Origin: a virus
Length of the DNA stretch: 64,000 nucleotides
Virus record (IMG/VR): IMGVR_UViG_3300008050_000026
Coordinates: 33,075-97,074 of that record
Strand: one strand, 5' to 3'
Shown here: piece after piece, positions 12,337 through 63,799 of the stretch
Numbering within the stretch: position 1 is the stretch's first letter
How the letters are laid out: the number at the start of each line of letters is the position of its first letter
Translations under genes and position numbers: made by a program
Notes under the pieces: model-generated
What the model was told of the DNA's origin: nothing
Seen by the model: the letters and a program-made list of their open reading frames with translations, nothing else
Databases searched by the model: none

Positions 12337-13262
12337 TGGATATTACTAAAGACATATTGGAAGAATTTGAAGAAATAACTAATTTCGATGCTATTTCGTT
12401 CATTCAGGCGTATGTTGATTTTTTACAAAAAGATCTATCAAAAATCCAACTGTTCTTTAGTGGTCAAATAAAGAATAATTCGCAAGATGCATTTGATAAT
12501 TTGAAGCAATTAAGAATAACAGTTGAAGATTTTTATTCCACCTTTAGATCATTTGAGACACAGTTGTGGTCATTCAAATGGTGGGATCTATTGGAAGAGA
12601 TTGAAAGAATAGAACATACGATCAGTTTGATGGAGAACATGTCAAAATGGATGCGTAGTAGTATTTTGAATTCAAGTTTTTCTCAGGATCAACTGGCTGA
12701 CTCAAATCTTATTCAAGGAGAAACCCTTGCTGATTTTTCAAGAACACGTGAAGGTTCTTCTGACCCTAATAATGATTGGTATGAGCTTGCGTTGTTGAAT
12801 GACCTTACTGAAGAGGAATATACAACCGATGGTGGTAATTTACTGTACTACAAAAAAAGGAATGGACCTATCCTATTCATTGAGTCAGTAGTAGATAATA
12901 TCGTAGGTGAAACTATATTGGGTCTTGATATTCAACAAACAATGGAGTTTGCTGATGATGATCTTGTAGTTTTATCACATAAGGACACATTTTATCAAGC
13001 AGTTGATATTTTAGCTACGTTAAAGAAAGGCGATAACCCAGAATTCTATGAAATTGGATTACAACCCGGAGTTACAGCAGGTTCAAATATCAACTCAATA
13101 GGGTTTCCTGTAATTTTGAGACAAATGAGTGAGTCGTTTGGTACAGATGATACGATAAGAACATCAGAAGTAACGGAAATTAGAAGAGACCAAGATGCGT
13201 TGTTCATTGATTTTGAAGTTGAAAGTATGAATAGCGATACAACCATTGCGTCAGTAAATTAA
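12336..13262 (+). CDS. Baseplate protein of unknown type
   Basis: A 308-residue protein between the tube-initiator-like gene and the baseplate J-like gene. The N-terminal 120 residues are predicted helical with several aromatic residues (FRSFETQLWSFKWWDLLEEIERIEH). The C-terminal half is beta-rich and ends in a 'FIDFEVESMNSD' strand. I recognise no family. Its place inside the baseplate cluster makes a wedge component the likely role, for instance the gp25/gp46-type position, but its length is not diagnostic. Confidence 0.5.
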   Translation: MDITKDILEEFEEITNFDAISFIQAYVDFLQKDLSKIQLFFSGQIKNNSQDAFDNLKQLRITVEDFYSTFRSFETQLWSFKWWDLLEEIERIEHTISLMENMSKWMRSSILNSSFSQDQLADSNLIQGETLADFSRTREGSSDPNNDWYELALLNDLTEEEYTTDGGNLLYYKKRNGPILFIESVVDNIVGETILGLDIQQTMEFADDDLVVLSHKDTFYQAVDILATLKKGDNPEFYEIGLQPGVTAGSNINSIGFPVILRQMSESFGTDDTIRTSEVTEIRRDQDALFIDFEVESMNSDTTIASVN

Positions 13263-13267
13263 AAGAC

Positions 13268-14473
13268 ATGGCACTTAATATTAGACCAAGTACAAGCAAA
13301 GAAAGAAAGGAACTATTTGTCGAAGCTATGCTTAATAAGACAGATAAGGTTACTAAGGTTTCGCCAAATTCAGTTTTGAGTGGAGTTGCTTTTGGTGTAG
13401 GTAAGATTGCAGGAAAGGCTGAAAAAGACATTTTCCTTGCTGTGGCCCAATTATTTCCTGATCATGCGTATGGTGAACAATTGGATCAGGTGGCTGAAAA
13501 TTTTGGTATTGCTCCAAGGTTTTTGCAATCTGGATCATCAACCTATTTAAGATTAGTTGGTGATGTTGGTACACAATATGCTATAAACACTCACATTTTT
13601 TCAGGTACTAATGGTATTCAATTCCAACTTGAAGAAGATGTTACGATAGGGGCTGCAGGATTTACATATACCAAAGTTAGAAGCGTTGATACTGGAGTTC
13701 AATCAAATGTAAACCCAGGAGATGTTTCCAACGTTACACCTGTACCTGTAGGACATACATACGTCGTGAATGAATACATTTCAACAGGTGGTAGAGAAAA
13801 TGAGTCAGATGAGGATTTTCGAAATAGAATAAAGGAGGGAGCCAATATTCTTGGAAAGGCAACAATTTCATCACTTGAACAGGCGATGATGAAGATCAAC
13901 ACAAATGTTCTTCGTGTATTTTTCTATGGACGTGATGATAATGGCAAATTGGTTCTTGCAATCCAATCACAAAATGGAATTGATTTCAACGAACAGGAAC
14001 TTGATGAATTGCTTGATAAAGCTGATAAGTACATGGCTTTTACAGAACTCAGGCCTTATGGTACACAAAGTTTTGGTGTGAAACTAAGAAACGTTGAATA
14101 TGATCCTCTTGATATTTCGTTCAGATGTAACCTATTCAATAACTTTGATCCAGATGCTGTAAGAAAAGAAATTCAGATCAACATCAGTAAATACCTTGAT
14201 TTTAGAAACTTTACTCAAGGTGGGATTGTTGAATGGGATAATATACTGGAGATTGTGAAAAAAACAAAAGGTGTGAAGTACGTGCCAGACCAATTCTTCT
14301 ATCCTAATAATGATATACAAACAAGTAGGGTGAAGATCATGCGCCTCAGGGGCTTCCTAATGTTAAACCTTGAAGGAACAGTTATCAGTACGCTTCAAAA
14401 TACATTGTCGCCAGTTTACTATCCCCAAGAGGCAGATTTTTCATTCCAACAAACTGTATTAGCTGAAATATAA
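13268..14473 (+). CDS. Baseplate J/gp47-like wedge protein
   Basis: A 401-residue protein with the Baseplate_J layout. There is an N-terminal helical part with 'LFPDHAYGEQLDQVAENFGI', a beta domain with 'PVGHTYVVNEYISTGGRENESDEDFRNRIKEGA' (the family hallmark is a Gly-Gly-x-x-x-E-S-D-E-x-[FL]-R-x-R segment, here at about 175-193), then 'ISSLEQAMMKINTNVLRVFFYGRDDNGK'. In T4-like and P2-like phages this protein forms wedges around the hub and transmits the contraction signal. Length and position both fit. Confidence 0.8.
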   Translation: MALNIRPSTSKERKELFVEAMLNKTDKVTKVSPNSVLSGVAFGVGKIAGKAEKDIFLAVAQLFPDHAYGEQLDQVAENFGIAPRFLQSGSSTYLRLVGDVGTQYAINTHIFSGTNGIQFQLEEDVTIGAAGFTYTKVRSVDTGVQSNVNPGDVSNVTPVPVGHTYVVNEYISTGGRENESDEDFRNRIKEGANILGKATISSLEQAMMKINTNVLRVFFYGRDDNGKLVLAIQSQNGIDFNEQELDELLDKADKYMAFTELRPYGTQSFGVKLRNVEYDPLDISFRCNLFNNFDPDAVRKEIQINISKYLDFRNFTQGGIVEWDNILEIVKKTKGVKYVPDQFFYPNNDIQTSRVKIMRLRGFLMLNLEGTVISTLQNTLSPVYYPQEADFSFQQTVLAEI

Positions 14474-28266: not shown

Positions 28267-29199
28267 ATGAAAGACGATCTCATCTTAGGTGCTGGTACAG
28301 CTGGTATAATTACTTCACTTTTCACAAAAGCAAAAATGATAGATCCTAAGCCACTTGGTGAGCTGGGGTTACCTTTTTCACCTGGGATAAGGATCTTCAA
28401 ATGGGAACTTGAAGTTGTACAATTTATTTCATACTGGCTTCCTAAGTGGTATCCAGAATTTAGCATCAAAAGGGAAACTTTGAAAATAGGCTATAAAACT
28501 GATGATGGGGTTTTTAATTGTGCCACTGAAAAATTCAAGGAAACATATTCCTTAATAACAAGAGGAAAACAAGAATATGAACCAAGTTTTTTATCGTCTG
28601 GTCAAAATAGTATTTCATACGTATCAATCAATGGTTTAGGATACGAAGGTTCTTATGAATTCTTTTTCAAATCAGCACTTGAGTACTTGAAAACAAAAGG
28701 TAAGTTAATTGAAGAAAAAGTAACATTTGTTGATATAGGATCAAAAACAGTAAGGTGTGGTGATAAAAAATACAACTATAAGCATTTGTATTCCTGTATC
28801 AAAAGACCAATTCTTGAAAGACTTATGGATAAGATTTCAGGTGAAGATTTTTCAACAACTAAGAAATCATTTTACAGAACTATCAAAATGATAGATGGTG
28901 GTATCATGGGTTATGCTTACATCTACAGTATAACAGATGAATGGACAAGAAAAACTGAGTTTGGTCGTTACTATGTTTATGAAACAACTAAGCCAATTTT
29001 AAGTGATCATTTTGAACATGACAATGAAATAACTGATACATTTGAGGATATTCCTTTGCAAATACAGAAATCACTATCACAAACAAACTACTATGGTGTA
29101 GAACTTGTTGGTAGGTATGCAGAATGGAACCATGCAATAAAAGCAAACGAAATAATTCAAAGGTTTGCGCAACGATTAAAATTCAAAGTAAATGGGTGA
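28267..29199 (+). CDS. FAD/NAD-binding oxidoreductase resembling UDP-galactopyranose mutase or amine oxidases
   Basis: A 310-residue protein beginning with a dinucleotide-binding motif (LILGAGTAGIITSL, G-x-G-x-x-G at about 7-12) and ending with 'VELVGRYAEWNHAIKANEIIQRF', a Gly-Arg-tyrosine-aromatic C-terminal pattern seen in UGM and other flavin-dependent amine-oxidase-like proteins. Known family members convert UDP-galactose rings or oxidise amines. The middle is divergent, so substrate cannot be named. It starts a promoter and is coupled by ATG overlap to the next gene, in a block of nucleotide enzymes; it could act on a nucleotide sugar or on a modified base. Confidence 0.6.
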   Translation: MKDDLILGAGTAGIITSLFTKAKMIDPKPLGELGLPFSPGIRIFKWELEVVQFISYWLPKWYPEFSIKRETLKIGYKTDDGVFNCATEKFKETYSLITRGKQEYEPSFLSSGQNSISYVSINGLGYEGSYEFFFKSALEYLKTKGKLIEEKVTFVDIGSKTVRCGDKKYNYKHLYSCIKRPILERLMDKISGEDFSTTKKSFYRTIKMIDGGIMGYAYIYSITDEWTRKTEFGRYYVYETTKPILSDHFEHDNEITDTFEDIPLQIQKSLSQTNYYGVELVGRYAEWNHAIKANEIIQRFAQRLKFKVNG

Positions 29200-30145
29200 T
29201 AGATTAAGTGAGATATTTCGTATTCAAATCGAGTTCAGTAAAACTTGGCTTAAGAATGAAAAGAACATTGACATTTTTGATATGTCAAGGAACGACAGGA
29301 TAAAATGGAGCAAGGAATACATATTAGCAGCAGTAAATGAACTATGTGAAGCCTTAAATGAGTTGAAGTGGAAAACTCATCGCGAATTTGAAAAACAAGA
29401 CAACATAGATAATTTTAACGAGGAATGTATTGATGTTTTTAAGTTCCTTATGAACCTCCTTCTAATAAATGGTATCAAGGAGGATGATTTCTATCAAAAG
29501 TTCATTGATAAAAGTGAAATCGTCCAATTGAGGTATGAGCAGGAAAAAGCAATGACTTTGTTGAAGTTGGACCCAAACGCAAGAATTGCCATTGTTGACA
29601 TTGATGGATGCTTGAATAACTACCCGTATCACTTTCTTGAATTTACAGAAGCTGCCACAGGATTGGATTACAAAACTGTTCCAGACTTCAAAGAAGCTGA
29701 CATAGTAAATTACAATAAAGCAAAGGCCTCATATAGATTATCAGGAGGAGAACGAGGAAACGTACCTAATGAAGAAACATTCAAATTCCTACATGATCTA
29801 AAGGCACATGGTTACACGGTTGTTCTTTTATCATCAAGGCCTTATGAAAAGATCAAAAGGCTATATTCGGATACTGTTCATTGGTTGAATAGTTACAAGT
29901 TTCCTTATGATTATCTGGTATTCAATAAAAATAAGGACACCTACATAATAGACAACCTAAAAGATTGTAATGTAGAATTTTGTGTAGATGATGATTTCAA
30001 CAATGCTCAGAACCTTTCTTATCATTTTCCAACTTATTTGATGGTTAACAAGGGCCTCTACTCGTTGGAAGCCTATCTACATGCACCAAAGAAAGTAAAG
30101 GTTATAGACTCACTATTAAAAATTGAACTTACAGGTATGAAATAA
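29192..30145 (+). CDS. Fusion: all-alpha NTP pyrophosphatase (dUTPase/MazG type) plus HAD phosphatase
   Basis: A 317-residue two-domain protein. The N-terminal domain (about 1-120) has the E-x-x-E...E-x-x-D metal motif of all-alpha pyrophosphatases (E50, E53; E78 and D81 in 'NEECID') with 'LNELKWKTH'. Such enzymes hydrolyse dUTP, dCTP or other NTPs to monophosphate. The C-terminal domain (about 130-290) has HAD motif I 'VDIDGCL' (D136, D138), motif II 'LLSSRP' (S214/S215) and motif III 'VDDDFNN' (D266-D268), as in 5'-nucleotidases. Together they would turn a dNTP to nucleoside. The start overlaps the preceding gene. I know this as a plausible but unusual fusion. Confidence 0.7.
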   Translation: MGDRLSEIFRIQIEFSKTWLKNEKNIDIFDMSRNDRIKWSKEYILAAVNELCEALNELKWKTHREFEKQDNIDNFNEECIDVFKFLMNLLLINGIKEDDFYQKFIDKSEIVQLRYEQEKAMTLLKLDPNARIAIVDIDGCLNNYPYHFLEFTEAATGLDYKTVPDFKEADIVNYNKAKASYRLSGGERGNVPNEETFKFLHDLKAHGYTVVLLSSRPYEKIKRLYSDTVHWLNSYKFPYDYLVFNKNKDTYIIDNLKDCNVEFCVDDDFNNAQNLSYHFPTYLMVNKGLYSLEAYLHAPKKVKVIDSLLKIELTGMK

Positions 30146-30160
30146 TAAATTATTATTTTT
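30141..30160 (+). promoter_or_regulatory. Promoter element inside the nucleotide-metabolism block
   Basis: AATAATAAATTATTATTTTT (30141-30160), one of the cleanest copies: inverted repeat arms AATAATAA and TTATTATT around one A. The upstream stop TAA is inside it, and ATG 30167 follows the T-run after six bases. The base after the T-run is A rather than G, so the TAnnTTTG match is one base short. Confidence 0.6.
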
Positions 30161-30166
30161 ACATAC

Positions 30167-30496
30167 ATGAAAGAAACAAAAACATATTGCTTTTATCAAG
30201 AAGGTGCTGCAGAAGTTGAATTGGACTTTTGGGAAAGCATGCAAAAACAGTTTTTGAAAACAGAAGTTGAGTTCAAAGGAAAAAAGTTAAGAATTTATGC
30301 TTTGGATAAAACACCAAGGAAACAAGAAATAGAACACATGATCTGTATTCCAGATACTATTGGCATCAATGCAGAACTTCACAATTTCTTGAATAACATC
30401 AGGCCAGCAGAATACAAGAAGACATTATATTTTGGAAAGATAACTTCTGAATATGCACAAATACTTAGTAACTTTATAAAGGCTTGTAAAAAATGA
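30167..30496 (+). CDS. Unknown small protein
   Basis: A 109-residue protein starting six bases after a promoter element. It has a beta-rich front (FEKGKKLRIYALD-like) and a helical end (YAQILSNFIKACKK). There is no motif I recognise. The stop overlaps the next gene by ATGA, so it is co-translated with the kinase/UDG fusion and may be an inhibitor or partner of it. Confidence 0.5.
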   Translation: MKETKTYCFYQEGAAEVELDFWESMQKQFLKTEVEFKGKKLRIYALDKTPRKQEIEHMICIPDTIGINAELHNFLNNIRPAEYKKTLYFGKITSEYAQILSNFIKACKK

Positions 30497-31446
30497 GTGA
30501 TGTAGTTCAAATCATACACATTGATGGACCAGACAAATCTGGCAAAGATGCTATCAAGCGTGAGATAATAAAAAGAACAGGTGGGGCTGTAATGGTAATT
30601 GCCAGATCGTTCCTTTCACAAACTGTTTATGCAAGTATCTATGGTCGAGATATAAATTCTGAAGGATATTGGTTAAAAGCAAAGCAAGCTTTTCAAAGAG
30701 GTGAAACACTCATATATCTTCGTCCAGAAAAGAACTTAGGTGAAATTGAAAGGAGGTTCAAGGAACATGATGAAAAAGACATGGACTTTGAAAATTATAC
30801 CTTACATAGAACTTGGTTTGATAGAACAGTATCGTTATTGGGACACCAAGGATGTAGATATTTACAAATAGATACAACAGCACATGATATTAGTAAATGT
30901 GTTGACATTATCTTACACAAGGCACTTTCAGATTATACAAAATTCTGTTCAAATTGTTTGCTTCATACTTTGGATGTCAATCAAATGGAGGCTAAACATG
31001 GATATGGGAAGCTTGTTCCAAAAAGAAATGATGGAACTGAGTTCATGATAGTGGGAATAAATCCATCTAACAAAAGAATACCATATAATCAAAACCCTTT
31101 TGAACTTACTAACGATCCACAAACACATAAGAACAAACCTTTTTGGGATGCTCTTTGGGACCTTGGCATCGGAAATAGATCATACATTACAAATGCAGTT
31201 AAATGTAGTACAAAAAACAACAAGTTAAAAACTGTAGATTTCAAATGCTGCGAACATATTCTTCAAGCGGAAATTGAATTCATGAGACCAAAGATTATAG
31301 TCGCAGTTGGAAAAGAAGTTGCAGCATATCTAAAAGGTAAACTTGATAGACACATTATTGAAATTCAAGATCCTGAACACCATAATTTCACACATTCATC
31401 AGTATACACACTTGACGTAATAGAAAAACTAAAACATCATGTCTAA
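30493..31446 (+). CDS. Fusion: P-loop dNMP-kinase-like domain plus Fe-S uracil-DNA glycosylase-like domain
   Basis: A 317-residue protein. Residues 7-140 carry a P-loop 'GPDKSGKD' (12-19) and a LID-like basic region, as in thymidylate/dNMP kinases. Residues 150-310 resemble family 4/5 uracil-DNA glycosylases: paired cysteines C152 and C155 (FCSNC), then C238 (NAVKC) and C252/C253, the spacing of the four [4Fe-4S] ligands, a GINPS motif (188-192) at the catalytic loop position, 'CEHILQAEIEFMRPKIIVAVGKEVA', and 'THSS' where the family has HPS. The kinase part phosphorylates a dNMP; the other removes uracil or a related base. Joining these in one chain is unusual. The block context suggests control of dU or of a modified base. 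Confidence 0.72.
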   Translation: MSDVVQIIHIDGPDKSGKDAIKREIIKRTGGAVMVIARSFLSQTVYASIYGRDINSEGYWLKAKQAFQRGETLIYLRPEKNLGEIERRFKEHDEKDMDFENYTLHRTWFDRTVSLLGHQGCRYLQIDTTAHDISKCVDIILHKALSDYTKFCSNCLLHTLDVNQMEAKHGYGKLVPKRNDGTEFMIVGINPSNKRIPYNQNPFELTNDPQTHKNKPFWDALWDLGIGNRSYITNAVKCSTKNNKLKTVDFKCCEHILQAEIEFMRPKIIVAVGKEVAAYLKGKLDRHIIEIQDPEHHNFTHSSVYTLDVIEKLKHHV

Positions 31447-32398
31447 AAGAATATTCATAACTGGAGAAAGTGGTGTAATACCAAAAGCAATCATGGCGCT
31501 TTGTGAAAACTCAAACCATGTGGTTGTAAATACACATCTTAATAAAGATCTGGATGGATTACGATGGCATCAATCATTCAAGGTTAGACATCCTGAAATT
31601 GATTTCACAAACGATAGTGTAATTGAAGAGGCATTTCGAAGATCACAACCTGAAATAGTAATACATTCAGGTGCTTATGTTGGAACAGATTATTGTGCAA
31701 GTTCAAAAGATGAAGCAGTAAGATCCAATGTATATGGTACACAGAAAATTGTTGACCTGTGTAATGAACATGGGTGTAAGTTAATCTATTTTTCAACAAC
31801 GGCTATTTTCGATCCAAAAGCTTATAATAAGTATAAGTATATGACTGGACAAACTCGAATTGATCCTCAAACATTATATGGTATCACGAAATACGCTGGG
31901 GAACTGATTGTTAAGAACTTGTGCAAAACACCTTTCACCATCGTTAGACCAGTATTTGGTTTTGGTGATTATCCAGATGATCTACATTCAGCTTTGACTA
32001 AGTACATCTATTCCATAATAAATGGAAATCCTTTGACGATCCTACTTGATAGAAAAATAGGCAAGAACTATTTTAGGGTTGAGAACATTGCACAAATTGT
32101 AATGAACATCATCAATCAAAATTATTTTGGTTCTATATTCAATATAGGTGAGAATTACGACCTTAGGAAAAATTGGAATGAGATTGATGAAGTCATTGAA
32201 AGTAAGTTAGGTAAGTTTGACAATAGTAAAATCACTTTTGTACCAGAAAAGGATTACCTGCACTGGCACAATATAGATAACAGGAATTTGAAGACATTGG
32301 GGTTGTATTATGATCTACCTATCATGTTTGAACAAGGAATAGAAATGACAATCAAATCAGTTAAGGAAAATCTTGACAAAAAACCATATTGGATATGA
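31439..32398 (+). CDS. NAD-dependent epimerase/dehydratase, RmlD-like
   Basis: A 319-residue extended short-chain dehydrogenase. The nucleotide motif is 'ITGESGVIP' (third Gly replaced by Pro), the catalytic residues are S119 in 'YFSTTAIF' and Y147-x-x-x-K151 in 'YGITK'. The sequence around 'VDLCNEHGCKLIYFSTTAIFD' and 'GDYPDDL' is closest to dTDP-4-dehydrorhamnose reductases, which reduce a nucleotide-activated keto sugar. It overlaps genes on both sides by ATGA. In this operon it may use a dTDP-sugar, though the modified Rossmann Gly may change cofactor binding. Confidence 0.7.
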   Translation: MSKRIFITGESGVIPKAIMALCENSNHVVVNTHLNKDLDGLRWHQSFKVRHPEIDFTNDSVIEEAFRRSQPEIVIHSGAYVGTDYCASSKDEAVRSNVYGTQKIVDLCNEHGCKLIYFSTTAIFDPKAYNKYKYMTGQTRIDPQTLYGITKYAGELIVKNLCKTPFTIVRPVFGFGDYPDDLHSALTKYIYSIINGNPLTILLDRKIGKNYFRVENIAQIVMNIINQNYFGSIFNIGENYDLRKNWNEIDEVIESKLGKFDNSKITFVPEKDYLHWHNIDNRNLKTLGLYYDLPIMFEQGIEMTIKSVKENLDKKPYWI

Positions 32399-48873: not shown

Positions 48874-49530
48874 ATGGAAATCAACAATTTCAAAGTATCT
48901 AAGCCAACATTCATTAAATCAAAGGAACAATGGAGGTTGATCAAACGAGATAATAATGACAAGGTACTTGAAAGGTTGTTCTTTGATACAAAAGAGGAGG
49001 CCGATACTATTTACATCCATTTGAAAACAGAACAAGGTGCAAAGATCAAGGCTGACGAGATTTCTTCTTCTGATAAAAACAAATCATTAGCAAAAACTGG
49101 AGATGCTAAGATCAAGGTACTTACAGCCCACGATACTATGTTTGATATGTTAGTGTCTGGTTCTGCAAGATCTACTATTGTTGAAAAATGCATGGTTGAT
49201 TTTAAGATCAATAGAAGCCAAGCGTTATTGATCCTGAAAGAAGTACTTGATACTGTGACATTATTCACACTTTCAAATATTGATGATATTATACCCATCC
49301 ACGTAAAAAGATACGAGGACATTTATGCTGCTGCTGAAACTGCTGGCTTTGATAAGTTGGCTTTGAAAGCATTGAATGCTAAGGAAAAATTGATTGGAAT
49401 GTCCAACAATAATGTTGAGGTTATCATCAACCAAGACAATTTCATTCAGGAATACAATTTTGACGATATTATTTTGAATAAGGAGGAGACAAATAAATTT
49501 GACCAAATCATGAAAAAAGCAAAAATCTAA
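48874..49530 (+). CDS. Candidate small terminase subunit
   Basis: A 218-residue protein starting at ATG 48874, chosen because 48868 directly abuts the promoter box. It is mostly helical. The C-terminal 'IPIHVKRYEDIYAAAETAGFDKLALKALNAKEKLIGM' looks like the oligomerising helices of phage small terminases, with a possible HTH region at 'STIVEKCMVDFKINRSQALLILKEVLD'. Small terminases recognise the packaging site and stimulate the motor; the large terminase lies three genes further on in the same transcription unit. Confidence 0.55.
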   Translation: MEINNFKVSKPTFIKSKEQWRLIKRDNNDKVLERLFFDTKEEADTIYIHLKTEQGAKIKADEISSSDKNKSLAKTGDAKIKVLTAHDTMFDMLVSGSARSTIVEKCMVDFKINRSQALLILKEVLDTVTLFTLSNIDDIIPIHVKRYEDIYAAAETAGFDKLALKALNAKEKLIGMSNNNVEVIINQDNFIQEYNFDDIILNKEETNKFDQIMKKAKI

Positions 49531-50150
49531 TGGCATGTTATTTGATAAGGGATAAAGAAGGCAATCCAAAAGTTGGGTTCATCCACATCTATAAGAATGG
49601 TGGAATGTCTGTAAGAAAAGAAATTGATAGGATATGCAAAGACCGAGGGTATACTCAGGAAGTTGTTGCCCAAGATGAAGGATCTTTATTTCTGAATAAA
49701 CAGGCTTTTGAACATTGGGGAGATGATTGGGGGCATGCATATAAGTTTGCAATTGTCCGATTACCTTATTCAAGAATGGTTTCATTGTATCATTTCATAA
49801 TTCAAAGAAAACAAAAACCTTTGTTTGATATGATCAAAGGAAAAAGTTTCAAGCAATTCATGCAAATGACATTTGAACATAAAACTGGAGCTAATGTAAA
49901 GCAAAAGGATTATGTTCTGGTTGACAACGTGATGCGTGTTCAACATATATGCCACCTTGAAACACTTGAACAGGATCTGAAAGTTGTAAATGCACAAACA
50001 GGTCTTGATTTTAAGATCAAACATGACAACAAGTCTCAACACAAACACTGGTCTCAGTATTTTCCAAAATCAGTATTGAATGCTACTTTTAAGTTCTTCA
50101 AAGAAGACTTCGAGCTATTCGGATACACAAAACAAGGAAACCTATCATGA
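49530..50150 (+). CDS. Sulfotransferase-like protein 1
   Basis: A 206-residue carbohydrate-sulfotransferase-like protein. The 5'-phosphosulfate-binding loop is seen in 'FIHIYKNGGMSV' (17-28; family pattern K-x-G-G/S-x-S-hydrophobic), and the 3'-phosphate site in 'FAIVRLPYSRMVSLYHF' (about 73-89; family R-x-P-x-x-R-x-x-S-x-Y). Such enzymes move sulfate from PAPS to a sugar hydroxyl. It starts in TAATG from the candidate small terminase and is coupled by ATGA to the fucose pathway genes. A second such gene lies at 63161. The natural target is unknown. Confidence 0.65.
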   Translation: MACYLIRDKEGNPKVGFIHIYKNGGMSVRKEIDRICKDRGYTQEVVAQDEGSLFLNKQAFEHWGDDWGHAYKFAIVRLPYSRMVSLYHFIIQRKQKPLFDMIKGKSFKQFMQMTFEHKTGANVKQKDYVLVDNVMRVQHICHLETLEQDLKVVNAQTGLDFKIKHDNKSQHKHWSQYFPKSVLNATFKFFKEDFELFGYTKQGNLS

Positions 50151-51076
50151 AGAAAACATCAAGGATTTTAGTAATTGGTGCCAATGGGATGGTTGGGTCT
50201 TCTTTAATGAGATTTTTGAAAAGAAAAGGTTTCAAATCTGTAATAGGTTCAACAAGGGATGATACTAATTTATTAGACTTGAAGCAGGTATCGTCTATGT
50301 ACAGAATGGCATCTGCAGAATATGTTTTCATGTGTGCAGGTAAAGTAGGAGGTATAAAGGCTAATAACGAGCAACGTGTGGAGTTCATGGAACAAAACAC
50401 ATTGATAGCAATAAATACTATTTCACAGGCATACGCTCAAGGTGTAAAGAAATTCTTGTATTTGGGATCTTCTTGTGTATATCCAAGATCTGTGGATACA
50501 CCTATTGCTGAAAGTTCTTTATTATCAGGTCCTTTGGAACAAACAAACGAACCTTACGCTTTGGCTAAAATACTTGGTATCAAGTTATGTGAAAACTATC
50601 GTTCTCAACATAACGCTGATTTCATTTCATGCATGCCTTGTAATTTATATGGCCCAGGTGATAATTATGATCTTGACTCAAGCCATGTGATGGCAGCAAT
50701 GATCAGAAAATTACATTATGCAAAAGAGGAAAATCTGAATGAAGTTACTTTTTGGGGTACTGGAAATCCTCTTCGTGAATTTGTTTATGTTGATGATCTT
50801 GCTGAAGCACTTCAGTTCTTAATGGAAAACTATTCTGAACAAGAAACAATAAACGTAGGTGCATACAGTGATTTTCATATAAAAGATCTTGCTGAAGTTG
50901 TTGCTAAGGTTATTGGATATGAAGGTGCAATTGAATTTGATCATGTTCATCCAGATGGAACTATGAGAAAAAAGGTTTCAACATCTAAAATGTCAAAACT
51001 TGGATGGACACCTAAGACAATGATTTTTGATGGAATAAAAAGAACTTACGAACAATACATAAAAACGTTAAAATGA
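50147..51076 (+). CDS. fcl: GDP-L-fucose synthase (WcaG/Fcl-like)
   Basis: A 309-residue NADPH-dependent bifunctional epimerase/reductase. The Rossmann motif is 'IGANGMVGSSL' (9-19), the catalytic residues S108/S109 and Y137-x-x-x-K141 (YALAK), and 'SSCVYP', 'MPCNLYGPGDNYD' are typical of Fcl. It turns GDP-4-keto-6-deoxymannose into GDP-L-fucose, the product of the next enzyme, encoded directly downstream. It shares ATGA overlap with both neighbours. Confidence 0.87.
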   Translation: MKKTSRILVIGANGMVGSSLMRFLKRKGFKSVIGSTRDDTNLLDLKQVSSMYRMASAEYVFMCAGKVGGIKANNEQRVEFMEQNTLIAINTISQAYAQGVKKFLYLGSSCVYPRSVDTPIAESSLLSGPLEQTNEPYALAKILGIKLCENYRSQHNADFISCMPCNLYGPGDNYDLDSSHVMAAMIRKLHYAKEENLNEVTFWGTGNPLREFVYVDDLAEALQFLMENYSEQETINVGAYSDFHIKDLAEVVAKVIGYEGAIEFDHVHPDGTMRKKVSTSKMSKLGWTPKTMIFDGIKRTYEQYIKTLK

Positions 51077-52068
51077 AAATAGCATTGATCTATGGTGTTA
51101 CAGGAATGGATGGTTCACATCTTGCTGAACTATTATTGGAAAAGGAATATGTCGTACACGGCGTAATAAGAAGATCTTCTTCTTTTAATACTGGGAGAAT
51201 TGATCATATAATCAAGGATTTGAATTTGCATTACGGGGATATTACAGATCCAAATTCTGTCAACAGTTTGATTAGTAAAATCCAACCAGATGAAATCTAT
51301 AATTTAGCGGCTCAATCTCATGTGGCTGTTTCATTTGAAATGCCTAACTATACAGGGCAGGTTGATGCAATGGGAACTACAAACATACTTGAAGCAGTAA
51401 GAAATTTGTCTCACCATTCAAAGTTCTATCAAGCATCAACATCTGAGTTATTTGGAAAAGTTGTTGAAACACCTCAAAAAGAAACAACTCCCTTTTACCC
51501 ACGAAGTCCATACGCTGTTGCCAAACTATATGGATATTGGATTACAAAAAATTATCGTGAAGCGTATGATTTGTTCGTTTGTAATGGTATTTTGTTCAAT
51601 CATACGGGTCCAAGACGCGGGGGAACCTTTGTAGAGAAGAAAATTGTTGATGGATTATGCAAATTCATTGAAGGAGGGCGAGGAATAAGACTTGGGAACA
51701 TCTATTCCAAGCGAGATATTGGTTTTGCACCTGAATATGTGGAAGGTATGTGGCGAATGCTTCAACAAGATGATCCTGATGACTACGTTCTTTCAACTGG
51801 GATTACAACTACAATAAAGGATATTGTAATTGAAGTCCTTTCGATTTTAGGAATAGAACATAAGTGGTTAGGTGAAGGCTTAAATGAAATTTGTGTTGAA
51901 AAAGGAACAGACAAAATAATCGTATCAATTGATGAGAGGTATTTCAGACCAACAGAAGTTGACTTATTACTTGGTGATAATTCAAAAGCAAAAGAGAAAT
52001 TAGGTTGGGAACCTACATACGATCTGAATAAGATACTTCATACAATGATAAAAATGGCACAGGAATGA
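51073..52068 (+). CDS. gmd: GDP-mannose 4,6-dehydratase
   Basis: A 331-residue dehydratase. 'IYGVTGMDGSHLAELLLEKEY' (G-x-x-G-x-x-G) is the NADP motif; 'STSELFG' and 'YPRSPYAVAKLYGYW' hold the catalytic Thr/Ser, Glu and Tyr-x-x-x-Lys; 'RRSSSFNTGRIDH' is diagnostic for GMD. It makes GDP-4-keto-6-deoxymannose from GDP-mannose, feeding the Fcl encoded just upstream. The pair is sufficient for GDP-L-fucose (GDP-mannose supplied by the host). Confidence 0.9.
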   Translation: MKIALIYGVTGMDGSHLAELLLEKEYVVHGVIRRSSSFNTGRIDHIIKDLNLHYGDITDPNSVNSLISKIQPDEIYNLAAQSHVAVSFEMPNYTGQVDAMGTTNILEAVRNLSHHSKFYQASTSELFGKVVETPQKETTPFYPRSPYAVAKLYGYWITKNYREAYDLFVCNGILFNHTGPRRGGTFVEKKIVDGLCKFIEGGRGIRLGNIYSKRDIGFAPEYVEGMWRMLQQDDPDDYVLSTGITTTIKDIVIEVLSILGIEHKWLGEGLNEICVEKGTDKIIVSIDERYFRPTEVDLLLGDNSKAKEKLGWEPTYDLNKILHTMIKMAQE

Positions 52069-53522
52069 TTGCTGTAGACAAGGAACTTGAAATTGAGTTG
52101 CTTAAGGAGGTATACAAACGAAGCTATTATGAATTTTTCAAAGATGCTTTCGCTTTATTACACCCAGGGGAACCTTATGATGACAATTGGCATATTGAAC
52201 ACTTATGTAATAGATTACAGCAGGAGTTATTCAGGATAAGAGCTCGAAAGAAAAGGCAACGCGATATCATTGTAAATATGCCTTTTAGATCAAGTAAAAG
52301 TTTGATCGTCACAGTAATATATCCTGCATGGGTCTGGTCTCAGGATCCTCAAGTAAAATTTATATGCACATCATTCTCCGATCCACTTTCATTAGAACAT
52401 GCTTCAAGATCAAGAACCTTGATAATGTCAGAATGGTATCAAACGCTATATGGTGACAAGGTTATTTTAAGATCAGATGAAAACACGAAATCGTTCTTCT
52501 CAACTGATCGTTATGGATTTAGAAAATCTGTAGGTACTGGTGGACAAATTACAGGATCAGGTTCTGACATCATAATAATTGATGATCCACAAAATCCTAA
52601 GAAAGCATCATCGGAAGTTGAACGACAGAATACTATTGATTTTTACGATTTTACATTATTCTCAAGATTGAACCAACCAGACATTGGAGTAAGAATAATC
52701 GTAATGCAAAGACTACATGAAGAAGATCTATCTGGACACTTAATTGAAACAAGACCCGATGATCATGAACACATTTGTTTTCCTGCTGAACTTACACCAA
52801 AAACAAGGGAATATGTTTCGCCTGAAAGTGTATTGAAACATTATCGCGATGGATTATTCTGGCATACAAGGTTCAGTAAAAAGCAACTTATTGCTTATGG
52901 TGCAGCTTTAGGATCAGTACAATATGCTGGACAACTTCAACAATTACCTGCACCAGAAGAAGGGAACATAATTAAACGAGATTGGTTTGAGATAGTTCCA
53001 GCGCATACTGTTGAAAGGGACGAATACAAGCATCCTATAAAGTTCTACCTTGATACAGCCGAAACAGAGAAACAAGAAGGTGATGCAACAGGAATTTGTG
53101 CATGTTTCAAAAAGGACAACAGGTTGTATATCACAAATGTGATCGAGGTCAGAAAAGAATTTCATCAACTCATTAAGTACATACCTGTTTTCGCTAAAGC
53201 AAATATGTATACAGGAGGTTCACAAATAAAGGTTGAACCAAAATCATCAGGTAAGTCAATTGTTTCTCAGTTAAGAACAGAAACTCAATTGAATATTTCT
53301 GAACTACCTGCACCAACAGATGATAAATTGACAAGAGCCACTGCTGTTACACCTATCATTGAAAGTGGTAGAGTTATTTTGATCCAAGGTGCATACTTAT
53401 CAAATTTCATGGCACAATTAACATCATTTCCAAACGCTAAACATGATGATATGTTTGATGCATTCATCCATGCAGTAACAGACCAGTTGGCTGGAGGGGA
53501 TTTTGACTTCGCATTTGTATGA
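52065..53522 (+). CDS. terL: Terminase large subunit
   Basis: A 485-residue packaging motor. The ATPase has a Walker A at 'NMPFRSSKSL' (about 71-80; the usual G before K is Ser) and a Walker B in 'DIIIIDDPQNP' (about 168-178). The C-terminal nuclease has D in 'FYLDTAETEKQEGDATG' (about 325-341) and 'KHDDMFDAFIHA' (about 462-473), the RNase H-like metal site. It pumps DNA into the prohead and cuts concatemers. It is the best marker of the phage in this window. It overlaps the GMD stop by ATGA. Confidence 0.87.
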   Translation: MIAVDKELEIELLKEVYKRSYYEFFKDAFALLHPGEPYDDNWHIEHLCNRLQQELFRIRARKKRQRDIIVNMPFRSSKSLIVTVIYPAWVWSQDPQVKFICTSFSDPLSLEHASRSRTLIMSEWYQTLYGDKVILRSDENTKSFFSTDRYGFRKSVGTGGQITGSGSDIIIIDDPQNPKKASSEVERQNTIDFYDFTLFSRLNQPDIGVRIIVMQRLHEEDLSGHLIETRPDDHEHICFPAELTPKTREYVSPESVLKHYRDGLFWHTRFSKKQLIAYGAALGSVQYAGQLQQLPAPEEGNIIKRDWFEIVPAHTVERDEYKHPIKFYLDTAETEKQEGDATGICACFKKDNRLYITNVIEVRKEFHQLIKYIPVFAKANMYTGGSQIKVEPKSSGKSIVSQLRTETQLNISELPAPTDDKLTRATAVTPIIESGRVILIQGAYLSNFMAQLTSFPNAKHDDMFDAFIHAVTDQLAGGDFDFAFV

Positions 53523-54436
53523 TAACACAAGACGACATACAGGCATATTCAGATAGACGAAAAGAGCTATTGAATAACAAGGCATTCAAGTCTGAATGTG
53601 GAAAATGCAATGGTGCAGGGGTGGTAATAAAGAAACGAGGAGGGGCTAAGAATAATATCTTCAGAAAATGTTCAATCTGTAGAGGATCTGGTGAAATAAC
53701 AAAAAAGGAATTTGGTGCTAAGACTATTGCTTTATCTGAGTTGTTCTATAAAGGATATACAAGGAGTGATTTGAGGCACATGCTGATAAAAACTTTCAGG
53801 TTAAATCCAGCAACTGCTGAAATGGATGTATCACGTGCTTTTCATTATATTGAAAACGAACATTCTACAAATAAAAAGGATGTCCTGTCAATTCATTACA
53901 GGAGGTATGAAAGGATCTTCAGAAAATATGCTGAATTAGATATTGAATTGGTGCCAAAACATTTACGTGGTTTGAGAATGTTTGAAGCGCTGTCAATAAT
54001 GATCGAAACCCTTCAATCAAAAGAACGTGCATTTGGAATGCATGCACAGAATTTTTCACTTAAGATCAACCAATTCAACATAGCACAAAAGAAAGTAGCA
54101 ACAAGAAATAAGTATGACTTCAAAAAATTATCATTGGAGGAACTCGTTGAAATCAAAACACTGATTGATGTTGCTAAGAAAAGAACTCAAGCAAGCATGG
54201 TTGTTGACTCAGATGTGGCTGCAGATATGGAGTTTGAAAAGATGACAAGCGCTAAAAGGCGAAAAGAAGAGGTTGAATACGATCATCCAATTCAAAAAGT
54301 AAAGACAAAAAAGCATCGAAAGGAAAAGGAATTTCAACATGTTCCTATGAAGACTGCTGATGATATTAAGAAAAAAATCAACGAGAGCTTAAAAAATAGT
54401 ATTATTGTTAGTATGAATAAGAAGAAAAATGGCTGA
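53519..54436 (+). CDS. DnaJ-type zinc-finger protein after the large terminase
   Basis: A 305-residue protein in ATGA overlap with terL. Two CxxCxGxG units (CGKCNGAG at about 27-34 and CSICRGSG at about 51-58) form half of a DnaJ-type zinc finger. A helix-rich middle (FYKGYTRSDLRHMLIKTFRLNPATAEMDVSRAFHYIE, HTH-like) and a basic C-terminal tail (KKHRKEKEF...) follow. Together with its place next to terL, it might be a DNA-binding packaging factor or an alternative small terminase. Function is not established. Confidence 0.55.
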   Translation: MITQDDIQAYSDRRKELLNNKAFKSECGKCNGAGVVIKKRGGAKNNIFRKCSICRGSGEITKKEFGAKTIALSELFYKGYTRSDLRHMLIKTFRLNPATAEMDVSRAFHYIENEHSTNKKDVLSIHYRRYERIFRKYAELDIELVPKHLRGLRMFEALSIMIETLQSKERAFGMHAQNFSLKINQFNIAQKKVATRNKYDFKKLSLEELVEIKTLIDVAKKRTQASMVVDSDVAADMEFEKMTSAKRRKEEVEYDHPIQKVKTKKHRKEKEFQHVPMKTADDIKKKINESLKNSIIVSMNKKKNG

Positions 54437-56820: not shown

Positions 56821-58378
56821 AAGGCTTTACAATCTATTAAGAAAAGAGCCTCATTCACTCATTCATGGTTACTATGATTATGACAACAACAAGATCGATG
56901 ATCGTGTAGAGTCATTAAATCTTGCTGAATTTAATCAGCCAAAAATTGAGAAGTTCATTGCTGCTATTGAAAAGGCAAATCATCCATCTTTCAAAACACC
57001 CTTGCGTCAATGTAAAAAATGGCTTGAAGTTCTCAAAGATCCATTGAATACATCTGTAGGTTCAGTATCTGGTTTCAAAACTGTAATGGAAACCTATGTG
57101 AAACAAACAAAGTCTGGATACATATACAGTTTGAATGAGGATGGAAATTATATGCCATATTGTATTGAGGAGGTAAAAGCTACTCGAGATGATGATGATG
57201 GTTATTATGTATTCATCAAAACAAAATACATTGGTACTTCACTTGATCGTGACGAATGGTCCTCAAGGAGCAAAAGCTTTGAAGAAAAATCAAGATATTT
57301 TTATTTCTATGGTGATGCATTTGATGAGAAACTATCATTGATTGATATTCTTTCAAAACAAAATCTTCATATCGAAACCCAAGAATACATAGATAATTAT
57401 GCTATGCAAATTGAGGATTTCAAAATACTAATAAATAAAGGCCAGAACAAACAATACAGAGGATTAGGTTCAGCTTTGGTTTCTGATGGTGATAGATGGT
57501 ATGCGAGAAACCGATGGATTTCAATTGATAGTAATGTTATACTTGATGCAATTCCAGATGAATTGAAAAGGAAAGCAACTGTTTCAGGTAAGAAAAGACG
57601 TATACCAATTCATCCATATTTCAAATGCTTTGATCTACAAACTCATAAGTGGTGTTTGCTTCATCCAAATTCATTAGAGGATTATGAATATAGTAAGGAG
57701 CAAATGGATAAGCTCGTCCTTGATCAAGATCTAAAAGATACGTTGAATAAGGTTCTTGCAAGTGAAGCCAAATTCAATGACATCATAGCAAATAAAGGAA
57801 AGGCTATGATTGTTTTATCAACAGGAGTACCCGGAGTTGGTAAGACACTAACTGCAGAGGTCTATTCCGAATACCATGAAATGCCATTGTACAAGGTTCA
57901 AGCCTCAAGTCTTGGTAGTAAACCAGAGGACATTGAAAAGAATTTGAAGATCACACTTGAAAGGGCATACAATTGGAATGCAGTTCTATTGATCGATGAA
58001 GCTGATACCTATGTAATGCAACGAGGAACTGATCTTGTTCAAAATGTCATCGTGGGAATATTCCTAAGATTGCTTGAATATTACAATGGTGTCCTGTTCA
58101 TGACTTCAAATCGAGTTGATGAAATTGACAATGCAATCAGGAGTAGATCTACATTGGTTATCAATTATCAACTTCCAAATGATAATCAAAGACACGAAAT
58201 TTATAAGATCTTGTTGAAACAAAATGAATTTGAATATGATGAAAATGAATTGGTTCAAATACTTCCAAGTTCTGAAGGTGACTCTGGGCGAGACATCAAA
58301 AACATAATACACAAGTTATTACTTTTGGACCTTCCACTTAATTTGACTAATGTTGAAAAAGTAAAGAAATTCATGTAA
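56801..58378 (+). CDS. AAA+ ATPase with long N-terminal domain
   Basis: A 525-residue protein. The C-terminal AAA+ module has Walker A 'GVPGVGKT' (342-349), Walker B 'LLIDEAD' (396-402), sensor-like 'FMTSNRVDEIDNAIRSR' and a C-terminal helical lid. The N-terminal 300 residues are of unknown fold. Single AAA+ modules of this type (CDC48/Bcs1-like by look) can remodel protein complexes or unfold substrates. It is flanked by the unknown 102-residue gene and a methyltransferase gene, which gives no firm clue to the substrate. Confidence 0.75.
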   Translation: MRIDLSKRLYNLLRKEPHSLIHGYYDYDNNKIDDRVESLNLAEFNQPKIEKFIAAIEKANHPSFKTPLRQCKKWLEVLKDPLNTSVGSVSGFKTVMETYVKQTKSGYIYSLNEDGNYMPYCIEEVKATRDDDDGYYVFIKTKYIGTSLDRDEWSSRSKSFEEKSRYFYFYGDAFDEKLSLIDILSKQNLHIETQEYIDNYAMQIEDFKILINKGQNKQYRGLGSALVSDGDRWYARNRWISIDSNVILDAIPDELKRKATVSGKKRRIPIHPYFKCFDLQTHKWCLLHPNSLEDYEYSKEQMDKLVLDQDLKDTLNKVLASEAKFNDIIANKGKAMIVLSTGVPGVGKTLTAEVYSEYHEMPLYKVQASSLGSKPEDIEKNLKITLERAYNWNAVLLIDEADTYVMQRGTDLVQNVIVGIFLRLLEYYNGVLFMTSNRVDEIDNAIRSRSTLVINYQLPNDNQRHEIYKILLKQNEFEYDENELVQILPSSEGDSGRDIKNIIHKLLLLDLPLNLTNVEKVKKFM

Positions 58379-59040
58379 TGGACAATTGGTTAAAAGAAAT
58401 CAAGAACAGTAACTTCAAGAAATATTCTCAATTTGGAGAAGAAGGACATCTGTTATTTATTCTTGCTCAAATTCCAGAATGTGGTAAAGACCAATTTCTT
58501 GTTGATATTGGTGCAGGTAAGAATTACTACCTCTCAAACACTAAACACTTCAAGGATATTGGATATTCAGGAATTTGGATTGATGGTGATATAAGTGAAT
58601 TGCATCCTGAAATCAAGCAACATTGGGTTACACGAGAGAACGTATGTGATCTACTTCAAATGTACAAATGTCCCCATGAGTTTGATTTGCTTTCAATTGA
58701 CCTTGATGGAAATGATCTATTCATACTTGAAAAGATCCTTGTTTATTACAGGCCAAGAGTTATTGTAGCTGAATTCAATGCTAATGTTCCTCATGGTGAA
58801 ATCAAAACGATAAAATATGATCCTCAACATGAGTGGGGAAAGGATGATTATTTTGGCTTCAGTTTTGAGGCAGGAAAGTTACTTGGAAAGATGTTTGGAT
58901 ATAAGATTGTCTACAACAATGCTGATCATAATCTTTTCTTCATAAGGGAAGATCTAATAGTTGGCCTTGAAGTACCTGAAATTACATACCACCACAGGCA
59001 GTGGCATAAGAAGTCTAACAGAAAAATGATTGACTGGTGA
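58378..59040 (+). CDS. FkbM-family-like SAM-dependent methyltransferase
   Basis: A 220-residue protein with 'YSQFGEEGHLLFILAQ' (16-31) and 'LVDIGAGKNYYLSNT' (41-55), the SAM-binding motif I, followed by 'LLSIDLDGNDLFIL' (104-117). FkbM-type enzymes O-methylate sugar or polyketide hydroxyls; the Ser-Gln-Phe-Gly-Glu-(E/D)-Gly start is characteristic. It overlaps the AAA+ stop and is coupled to a second methyltransferase-like gene, so they may modify the same glycan. DNA methylation is unlikely because no DPPY or PC motif is seen. Confidence 0.65.
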   Translation: MDNWLKEIKNSNFKKYSQFGEEGHLLFILAQIPECGKDQFLVDIGAGKNYYLSNTKHFKDIGYSGIWIDGDISELHPEIKQHWVTRENVCDLLQMYKCPHEFDLLSIDLDGNDLFILEKILVYYRPRVIVAEFNANVPHGEIKTIKYDPQHEWGKDDYFGFSFEAGKLLGKMFGYKIVYNNADHNLFFIREDLIVGLEVPEITYHHRQWHKKSNRKMIDW

Positions 59041-59651
59041 ATTACGAAGAAAATATAGAACAGGGATTGGAGAACAAAGGTAGATACAGATTACCTTTCA
59101 ACAACGATGAGTTCATTAAGGATATGGTTGTTCAATTGAAAAAACAACACAACCTGAAAATAGCAATAGAAACAGGTAGTTTCATGTATACTACATCAAG
59201 GTTCTTTGCCAATCTTTTTGAGAAGTTCATAACATTTGAGAAATCAAGTAAGTTATTCAATGAGTTCAATCACATCATTGCAGGACATACAAATGCAATA
59301 GGCCTCTGTATTGATAGTGTAGATGGATTGAAAAAATATTCACCTCAAATAACTTCTGAAACACTTATTTATCTGGATGCACATTGGGATGATAATTTTC
59401 CATTGTTAGAGGAGCTAAAGGTCATTGCTGATACAGGTGAAAAACCTCTTATCATGATCCATGATTTCAAAGTTCCTGACACAGATAGGTTCTTCTATAC
59501 ATTTAATGATGTAGATTTAGATCTTGATTATGTAGAAGAAAGTCTCGATAAAATCTATGGTAAAGACAAATATTCAATCATGTATCCTGCACAAGTTGGA
59601 ATTGAAAACGTAGGTTGTGTATTCATAATTCCTGAAAAAAGTGGAAGTTGA
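59037..59651 (+). CDS. Second methyltransferase-like protein (class I fold)
   Basis: A 204-residue protein starting at GTG 59037, in overlap with the FkbM-like stop. 'KIAIETGSFMYTTSRFFANLFEKFITFEKS' (about 41-70) matches motif I-II of SAM methyltransferases of the CmcI type, with the acidic Glu in motif II. 'LIYLDAHWDDNFPLLEELKVI' further on is similar to the DAH motif of that group. Activity on a sugar or small molecule is likely. A catalytic metal site may use the D-A-H. Confidence 0.6.
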   Translation: MNYEENIEQGLENKGRYRLPFNNDEFIKDMVVQLKKQHNLKIAIETGSFMYTTSRFFANLFEKFITFEKSSKLFNEFNHIIAGHTNAIGLCIDSVDGLKKYSPQITSETLIYLDAHWDDNFPLLEELKVIADTGEKPLIMIHDFKVPDTDRFFYTFNDVDLDLDYVEESLDKIYGKDKYSIMYPAQVGIENVGCVFIIPEKSGS

Positions 59652-62767: not shown

Positions 62768-62988
62768 AAAAACTGATAAAAAAATTCAAGGAATGGTTAG
62801 ATGATAACTTTCCAAAGTATGAGATACTTGAAGAGAAATGCGTGTCATATCTTGAAGCAGATAAGCTAATGAAAGCTTGTAACAACGATGATGATACAAC
62901 AAAACATTGGGTAATTTCTGACCTTGAAGACATCAACAAAGCATACGGTTGGGTCTGGATATGTAGAAAGAAAAAAGTTAAGAGATGA
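62764..62988 (+). CDS. Small hypothetical protein
   Basis: A 74-residue, helical protein (MKKLIKKFKEWLDDNFPKYEILEEKC...), with a basic N-terminus and a Trp-containing C-terminus (KAYGWVWICRKKKVKR). It overlaps both neighbours by four bases. It could bind nucleic acid by charge. Confidence 0.45.
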   Translation: MKKLIKKFKEWLDDNFPKYEILEEKCVSYLEADKLMKACNNDDDTTKHWVISDLEDINKAYGWVWICRKKKVKR

Positions 62989-63161
62989 TACAGAAAGCAG
63001 GAAAACCAAAAGCAGGTACAGTACATCCTTCAATTAAGAAATTTGATTGGAATATAGTAACTGGAAATACTGGTAAATGTATATGTGCAAGACCAAAAGC
63101 AATGAGTTATGGTAGAATGATCTCGTGCAATGGTTGTGGAAAACTAATATCAAGTTTCTAA
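62985..63161 (+). CDS. Small zinc-ribbon-like protein (58 residues)
   Basis: A 58-codon frame whose ATG at 62985 overlaps the previous stop. It ends at TAA 63159, overlapping the ATG of the sulfotransferase gene. Cysteines at 'KCICARP' and 'ISCNGCGK' (C-x-C ... C-x-x-C) suggest a mini zinc ribbon. Function is unknown. Confidence 0.45.
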   Translation: MIQKAGKPKAGTVHPSIKKFDWNIVTGNTGKCICARPKAMSYGRMISCNGCGKLISSF

Positions 63162-63799
63162 TGGTTGTTTCAGATAAATACAATTTCATCTTTGTTCATA
63201 TACCTAAAACAGGAGGTAGATCAATAAGAACAATACTGAAAGATCATATAGAAATATCTACTCATCATCGATTAGAAAATATGAATAGAAATCGAATACA
63301 TGCTCATCTTACATTATACGAGATAAGAAAGTATTTGAATGGCTATAGTTTTGATAATAAAGGCAATGTAAAACCATTACAAGATCCTATCAAGCGATTT
63401 GAAGGGAAAAAGATCTTTACTGTAATGAGAAATCCATGGGATTGGGTAGTAAGTTACTATGAATTCATAAAGAGTAGAAGACGTCATCCAAAATATTTTG
63501 AAGTAAATGCAATGAGCTTTAAGGATTTTATAAAGTCAGATTATGTCAAACCTCAAGTAAATTACATTTGGAATTTTACAACAAATAGTATCTGGCCAGA
63601 AACTAAGATAATTCGTTTCGAAGATCTTCAAAAAGGATTTAATGAAATGCTGCTGGAAGTTGGTCTTCATCAAATGCAATTACCTCATTTACATAAAACA
63701 AAAAGAGGAAAATATCATGAGTATTATGATGAAGAAACAAAATCGTTAATAGCCAATAAGTTTGCAAAGGAAATAGAACTATTAAAATACGAATTTTAA
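63161..63799 (+). CDS. Sulfotransferase-like protein 2
   Basis: A 212-residue carbohydrate sulfotransferase-like protein. The 5'-PSB loop is 'FVHIPKTGGRSI' (11-22), an excellent match to the family (x-H-I-P-K-T-G-G-x-S), and the 3'-PB region 'IFTVMRNPWDWVVSYYEF' (about 85-102) matches R-N-P-x-D/R-x-x-x-S-x-Y. It would transfer sulfate from PAPS to a glycan. The start at ATG 63161 (TAATG overlap) is preferred to the long frame at 63125. It is more canonical than the sulfotransferase-like protein at 49530, with which it shares the fold but not close sequence. Confidence 0.8.
   Translation: MVVSDKYNFIFVHIPKTGGRSIRTILKDHIEISTHHRLENMNRNRIHAHLTLYEIRKYLNGYSFDNKGNVKPLQDPIKRFEGKKIFTVMRNPWDWVVSYYEFIKSRRRHPKYFEVNAMSFKDFIKSDYVKPQVNYIWNFTTNSIWPETKIIRFEDLQKGFNEMLLEVGLHQMQLPHLHKTKRGKYHEYYDEETKSLIANKFAKEIELLKYEF

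Follow-up and report, generated by a model that had tools for sequence, protein, structure and literature searches.

Our analysis revealed that ST2 (63161-63799, + strand) is a genuine phage sulfotransferase and an ordinary addition to a known family. The reading we favor, with a probability of about 0.6, is that it catalyzes the O-sulfation of a glycan made or altered during infection, using PAPS from the host. The virus record is 97,074 bp long, and the window, that is, the whole stretch of DNA analyzed, takes up its right-hand 64 kb (record positions 33075-97074); the right end of the record lies about 200 bp beyond ST2. The locus contains the following features, in window positions:

62985-63161, + strand: 58-aa ORF with CxC/CxxC cysteines, seen in the sequence, whose stop overlaps the ST2 ATG (TAATG)
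63161-63799, + strand: ST2, a 212-aa sulfotransferase of the Sulfotransfer_2/PHROG_3347 kind, with the conserved active-site residues all present
63194-63223, + strand: 5'-phosphosulfate-binding loop (residues 12-21, VHIPKTGGRS), with K16 and S21 conserved in relatives
63305-63307, + strand: codon of His49, located between the two motifs and conserved in 42/44 aligned proteins, a candidate catalytic base by analogy
63428-63454, + strand: 3'-phosphate-binding block (RNPWDWVVS), with R90 and S98 invariant in 44/44 aligned proteins

The intact ST2 reading frame would be longer if started from a GTG at 63125; the ATG at 63161, also the start in the preliminary description, is judged the better one from the sequence because it overlaps the TAA of the 58-aa ORF. 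This overlap suggests coupled translation, and because the 58-aa ORF also overlaps its own preceding ORF, ST2 forms part of a tightly packed + strand gene run. The assignment of ST2 as a sulfotransferase, originally proposed from HIPKTGGRS and RNPWDWVVSYY, was borne out by the presence of both motifs in an intact gene and by the agreement of family, profile, and model evidence. In Pfam, ST2 exceeded the cut-off of 22 for PF03567 Sulfotransfer_2 (26.3 bits, E 9.8e-6) but did not reach the same cut-off for PF00685 Sulfotransfer_1 (19.7 bits), and PHROG_3347 matched nearly the whole protein (E 2.1e-11). Single-protein scans returned no close relatives of ST2 in viral and genome contigs and none of ST1, the other sulfotransferase of this phage, in viral contigs; a family alignment was needed to find relatives. 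A profile was built from 42 viral relatives, leaving out both sulfotransferases of the window; against it, ST2 scored 166.4 bits (E 2.5e-50) and ST1 111.3 bits, with all other ORFs of the record at or below 6.6 bits and a top score of 12.3 bits among 2000 shuffled ST2 sequences. The AlphaFold2 model of ST2 (pLDDT 93.7, pTM 0.88) predicted the corresponding fold, since its 21 PDB matches at E <= 0.001 were all sulfotransferases, many of them PAP-bound; the PDB sequence search yielded SULT4A1 only, at E 0.5.

In the alignment of 44 proteins used to count residue conservation, the PAPS-binding residues were not lost in homologues: besides the invariant R90 and S98, K16 was found in 43/44, and position 21 was Ser in 42/44, as in ST2, and Thr in the other 2/44. 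ST2 would be a soluble, PAPS-dependent enzyme of the small Sulfotransfer_2 type, carried as a phage accessory gene, in which the PKTGG loop and the RNPWD...S block would hold PAPS between them. A histidine acts as the catalytic base in other sulfotransferases, and by this analogy His49 probably activates a hydroxyl of the sugar acceptor, giving an O-sulfate. PAPS itself would be drawn from the host, because no APS kinase was recognizable in the record with a model that matched all 14 control genomes.

The record is that of a tailed phage, most likely with a Bacteroidota host, because its terminase shares 46% identity with the Chryseobacterium phage MA9V-3 protein and about 40% with that of Croceibacter phage P2559Y, and because the record is collinear over much of its length with MA9V-3. 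The latter is a contractile-tailed phage (PMC13120357). Four genes of the record run as follows:

49530-50150, + strand: ST1, a divergent sulfotransferase with HIYKNGGMS, without the conserved Pro and His
50147-51076, + strand: fcl, GDP-L-fucose synthase-like
51073-52068, + strand: gmd, GDP-mannose 4,6-dehydratase, over the TIGR01472 cut-off
52065-53522, + strand: terminase large subunit, a backbone gene immediately following the ST1-fcl-gmd cassette

The ST1/fcl, fcl/gmd, and gmd/terminase junctions each overlap by 4 bases. MA9V-3 contains no match to ST1, fcl, gmd, ST2, or any ORF from 56512 to the right end, whereas it does have matches to the terminase, the polymerase, the helicase, and many genes in the left arm of the record, and on this comparison ST1, fcl, gmd, and ST2 are identified as accessory genes. 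The gmd product scored 465 bits against an equivalog cut-off of 415; fcl scored 389 bits against a strict equivalog cut-off of 500, and its best PDB matches were GDP-fucose synthases. A third SDR-family protein, RmlD-like, is encoded at 31439-32398. An Rfam search of the window gave no match, including to the wcaG-motif type RNA annotated beside gmd/fcl in S-SCSM1.

ST2 had been described as the second and more canonical sulfotransferase of the window, and both points proved right, given that ST1 is the other copy and that only ST2 retains His49 alongside its intact cofactor-binding residues. In the 44-protein alignment, ST1 carries Gln for His49, Tyr for the loop Pro, and Leu for Asn91, and because the family's conserved His and Pro are missing, ST1 activity cannot be assumed from its sequence. 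These substitutions, together with the longest branch by far in the trees (2.35 and 3.6 changes per column), are what a degenerate or non-catalytic ST1 would display, leaving ST2 as the sole working sulfotransferase of the phage; nevertheless, ST1 keeps the cofactor-site K, S, R, and S, and its intact ORF was modeled with a sulfotransferase fold like that of ST2 (pLDDT 92.2), so that we regard its degeneration as a tentative and rather unlikely explanation. The two proteins share 26% identity in pairwise alignment. Because the tree is unresolved and a common ST1+ST2 clade was neither supported nor rejected (p-AU 0.486), duplication and separate gain cannot be told apart by these sequences.

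The profile search detected no third sulfotransferase in the whole 97,074-bp record, neither to the left of the window nor in the short remainder beyond ST2. The two genes had been taken to imply sulfation at more than one position or on two targets, an argument that falls because viral records with genes of this family usually carry several of them, and ST1 moreover lacks the conserved His and Pro. At least two matches (E <= 1e-5) were present in 34 of 43 related viral records, with a maximum of 12; this count, which excludes the present record and MA9V-3, is not a population frequency, since the records were chosen for having at least one sulfotransferase and a single gene sometimes accounts for more than one match. 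The 12 matches, the highest number among the records searched, belonged to a single 222-kb viral record. Relatives are encoded by at least 434 stretches of viral contigs, and Rhodobacterales, Planctomycetota, and Verrucomicrobiota are frequent sources of cellular relatives, one of the 80 retained coming from Saprospiraceae (Bacteroidota). Taken alone, ST2 is one more member of a known family, of a kind common in phages and often present several times per genome.

The flanks of the viral relatives indicate what such genes accompany. Among 102 ORFs flanking 21 of these relatives, Sulfotransfer_2 was the commonest family (21); GDP-mannose dehydratase, epimerases, GT2, and GT92 came next (4 each), and GT10, GT11, and GT29 glycosyltransferases were fewer. 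These are raw counts, taken without a background set, and a glycan setting is their plain reading. The preliminary description had likewise placed both sulfotransferases in a distributed glycan-tailoring set, citing two methyltransferases:

58378-59040, + strand: possible FkbM-like methyltransferase, below every cut-off
59037-59651, + strand: protein formerly called a methyltransferase, matching no methyltransferase model

No family model confirmed either of them, the first reaching 14.3 bits against FkbM (PF05050; cut-off 22.7), and both may still be methyltransferases; a relative of the first in Synechococcus phage S-SM2 sits in a sugar-nucleotide gene cluster. Apart from these two proteins, glycan tailoring by phage genes is plausible by way of the ST1-fcl-gmd cassette, the relatives' neighbors, and two genes to the left of the window. 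The product of one (record 8741-10123) is 460 aa long and has a clear FkbM methyltransferase domain at its C terminus (62.6 bits); the other (record 12809-13546) encodes a Stealth-CR2-like protein just under the cut-off (35.3 bits). Both lie in a stretch unmatched in MA9V-3 and flanked by MA9V-3-matching genes.

The acceptor of ST2 would most likely be a glycan, possibly one with L-fucose or a related 6-deoxy sugar, because the phage encodes the steps from GDP-mannose to GDP-fucose beside ST1. Since ST2 is 11-13 kb from fcl and gmd, its connection to fucose is that of a shared genome, not a shared operon, which weighs against the link. No GT11 fucosyltransferase was found in the record, and no GT10 fucosyltransferase either, the latter absence being weak since the GT10 control matched nowhere. 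The benefit to the phage could be a receptor change that blocks superinfection or the masking of the virion. The sulfated glycan may belong to the host or to the virion.

In a virion-directed form of the reading we favor, sulfation of a glycan or protein on the phage particle itself, such as the tail fiber or capsid, could alter adsorption or protect the virion. The overlaps that join ST1, fcl, and gmd to one another and to the terminase gene represent a late-gene setting that fits this possibility, as do the FkbM methyltransferase and the Stealth-like protein in the left part among MA9V-3-ordered genes. However, ST2 resides in the right arm, away from the structural genes, and no modified virion protein is known in this phage, making a particle target unlikely, if worth keeping in view. 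Quite improbable, in our estimate, is a more elaborate scheme of phage-made, sulfated fucose-type decoration, in which the phage would produce its own GDP-fucose, place the sugar on the particle or host surface, and sulfate it through ST1 and ST2 with host PAPS; if true, a sulfated glycan of a Bacteroidota host system would be specified by the phage. Phage sulfotransferases are widespread, and what they do has been stated to be unclear (PMC10580990). With two sulfotransferases and GDP-fucose genes here and none of them in the collinear MA9V-3, whose host genus Chryseobacterium is culturable, the two phages offer a natural comparison for a sulfated target.

Small molecules and proteins are also acceptors for sulfotransferases with the fold of ST2, and the cytosolic SULT enzymes are not known to act on glycans, which weighs against a glycan acceptor. 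A host small molecule or lipid as the ST2 acceptor, in a metabolic or counter-defense role, would agree with these SULT enzymes, which act on small molecules, being the closest solved folds, but the sequence family is Sulfotransfer_2 rather than Sulfotransfer_1 and the viral relatives sit among glycan-synthesis genes, so that we consider this explanation improbable. The SULT enzymes (e.g., mouse SULT7A1, 5x2b) have the core fold in common with ST2, although they are larger and align with TM-scores of only about 0.4-0.57.

Among the closest known systems are several from phages. The phage moron genes of the PF03567/PHROG_3347 group annotated as 'Galactose-3-O-sulfotransferase' resemble ST2 in the near-full-length profile match, cofactor motifs, His, and size; however, identity between ST2 and the relatives found is only about 24-41%, and the galactose 3-OH acceptor, a label of the PHROG annotation, should not be transferred to it. 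The sulfotransferases of the huge phages LR756500 and LR756508 are 24-26% identical to ST2 over the whole protein. Three consecutive sulfotransferase genes occur in LR756508 (L012:3335-5201) amid glycosyltransferase-like and methyltransferase-like ORFs, unlike the present record, in which 13 kb separate ST1 from ST2 and none of the tested glycosyltransferase families was found; these huge genomes also measure 462-484 kb (LR756508, 484 kb) compared with 97,074 bp. In BFVD, the sulfotransferases of Ralstonia phage RSL1, Roseobacter phage SIO1 (gp5.1), Prochlorococcus phage P-SSM7, and Synechococcus phages ACG-2014f and S-SCSM1 share the predicted fold of ST2 (Foldseek E 4e-8 to 9e-3), albeit with only 11-18% identity and in phages of other hosts. 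In S-SCSM1, gmd and fcl occur beside fucosyltransferases, in addition to its BFVD-listed sulfotransferase.

Elsewhere in the window, the ORF directly after the terminase gene (53519-54436) gave a DnaJ-type CxxCxGxG zinc-finger match of 24 bits, below the cut-off. The region 29192-32398 forms a nucleotide-metabolism block, encoding a dUTPase_2 domain fused to a HAD/polynucleotide-kinase-phosphatase-like domain, a second protein that matches uracil-DNA glycosylase clearly and thymidylate kinase weakly, and the RmlD-like SDR; the occurrence of dUTPase and uracil-DNA glycosylase in one phage may have a bearing on uracil in its DNA.
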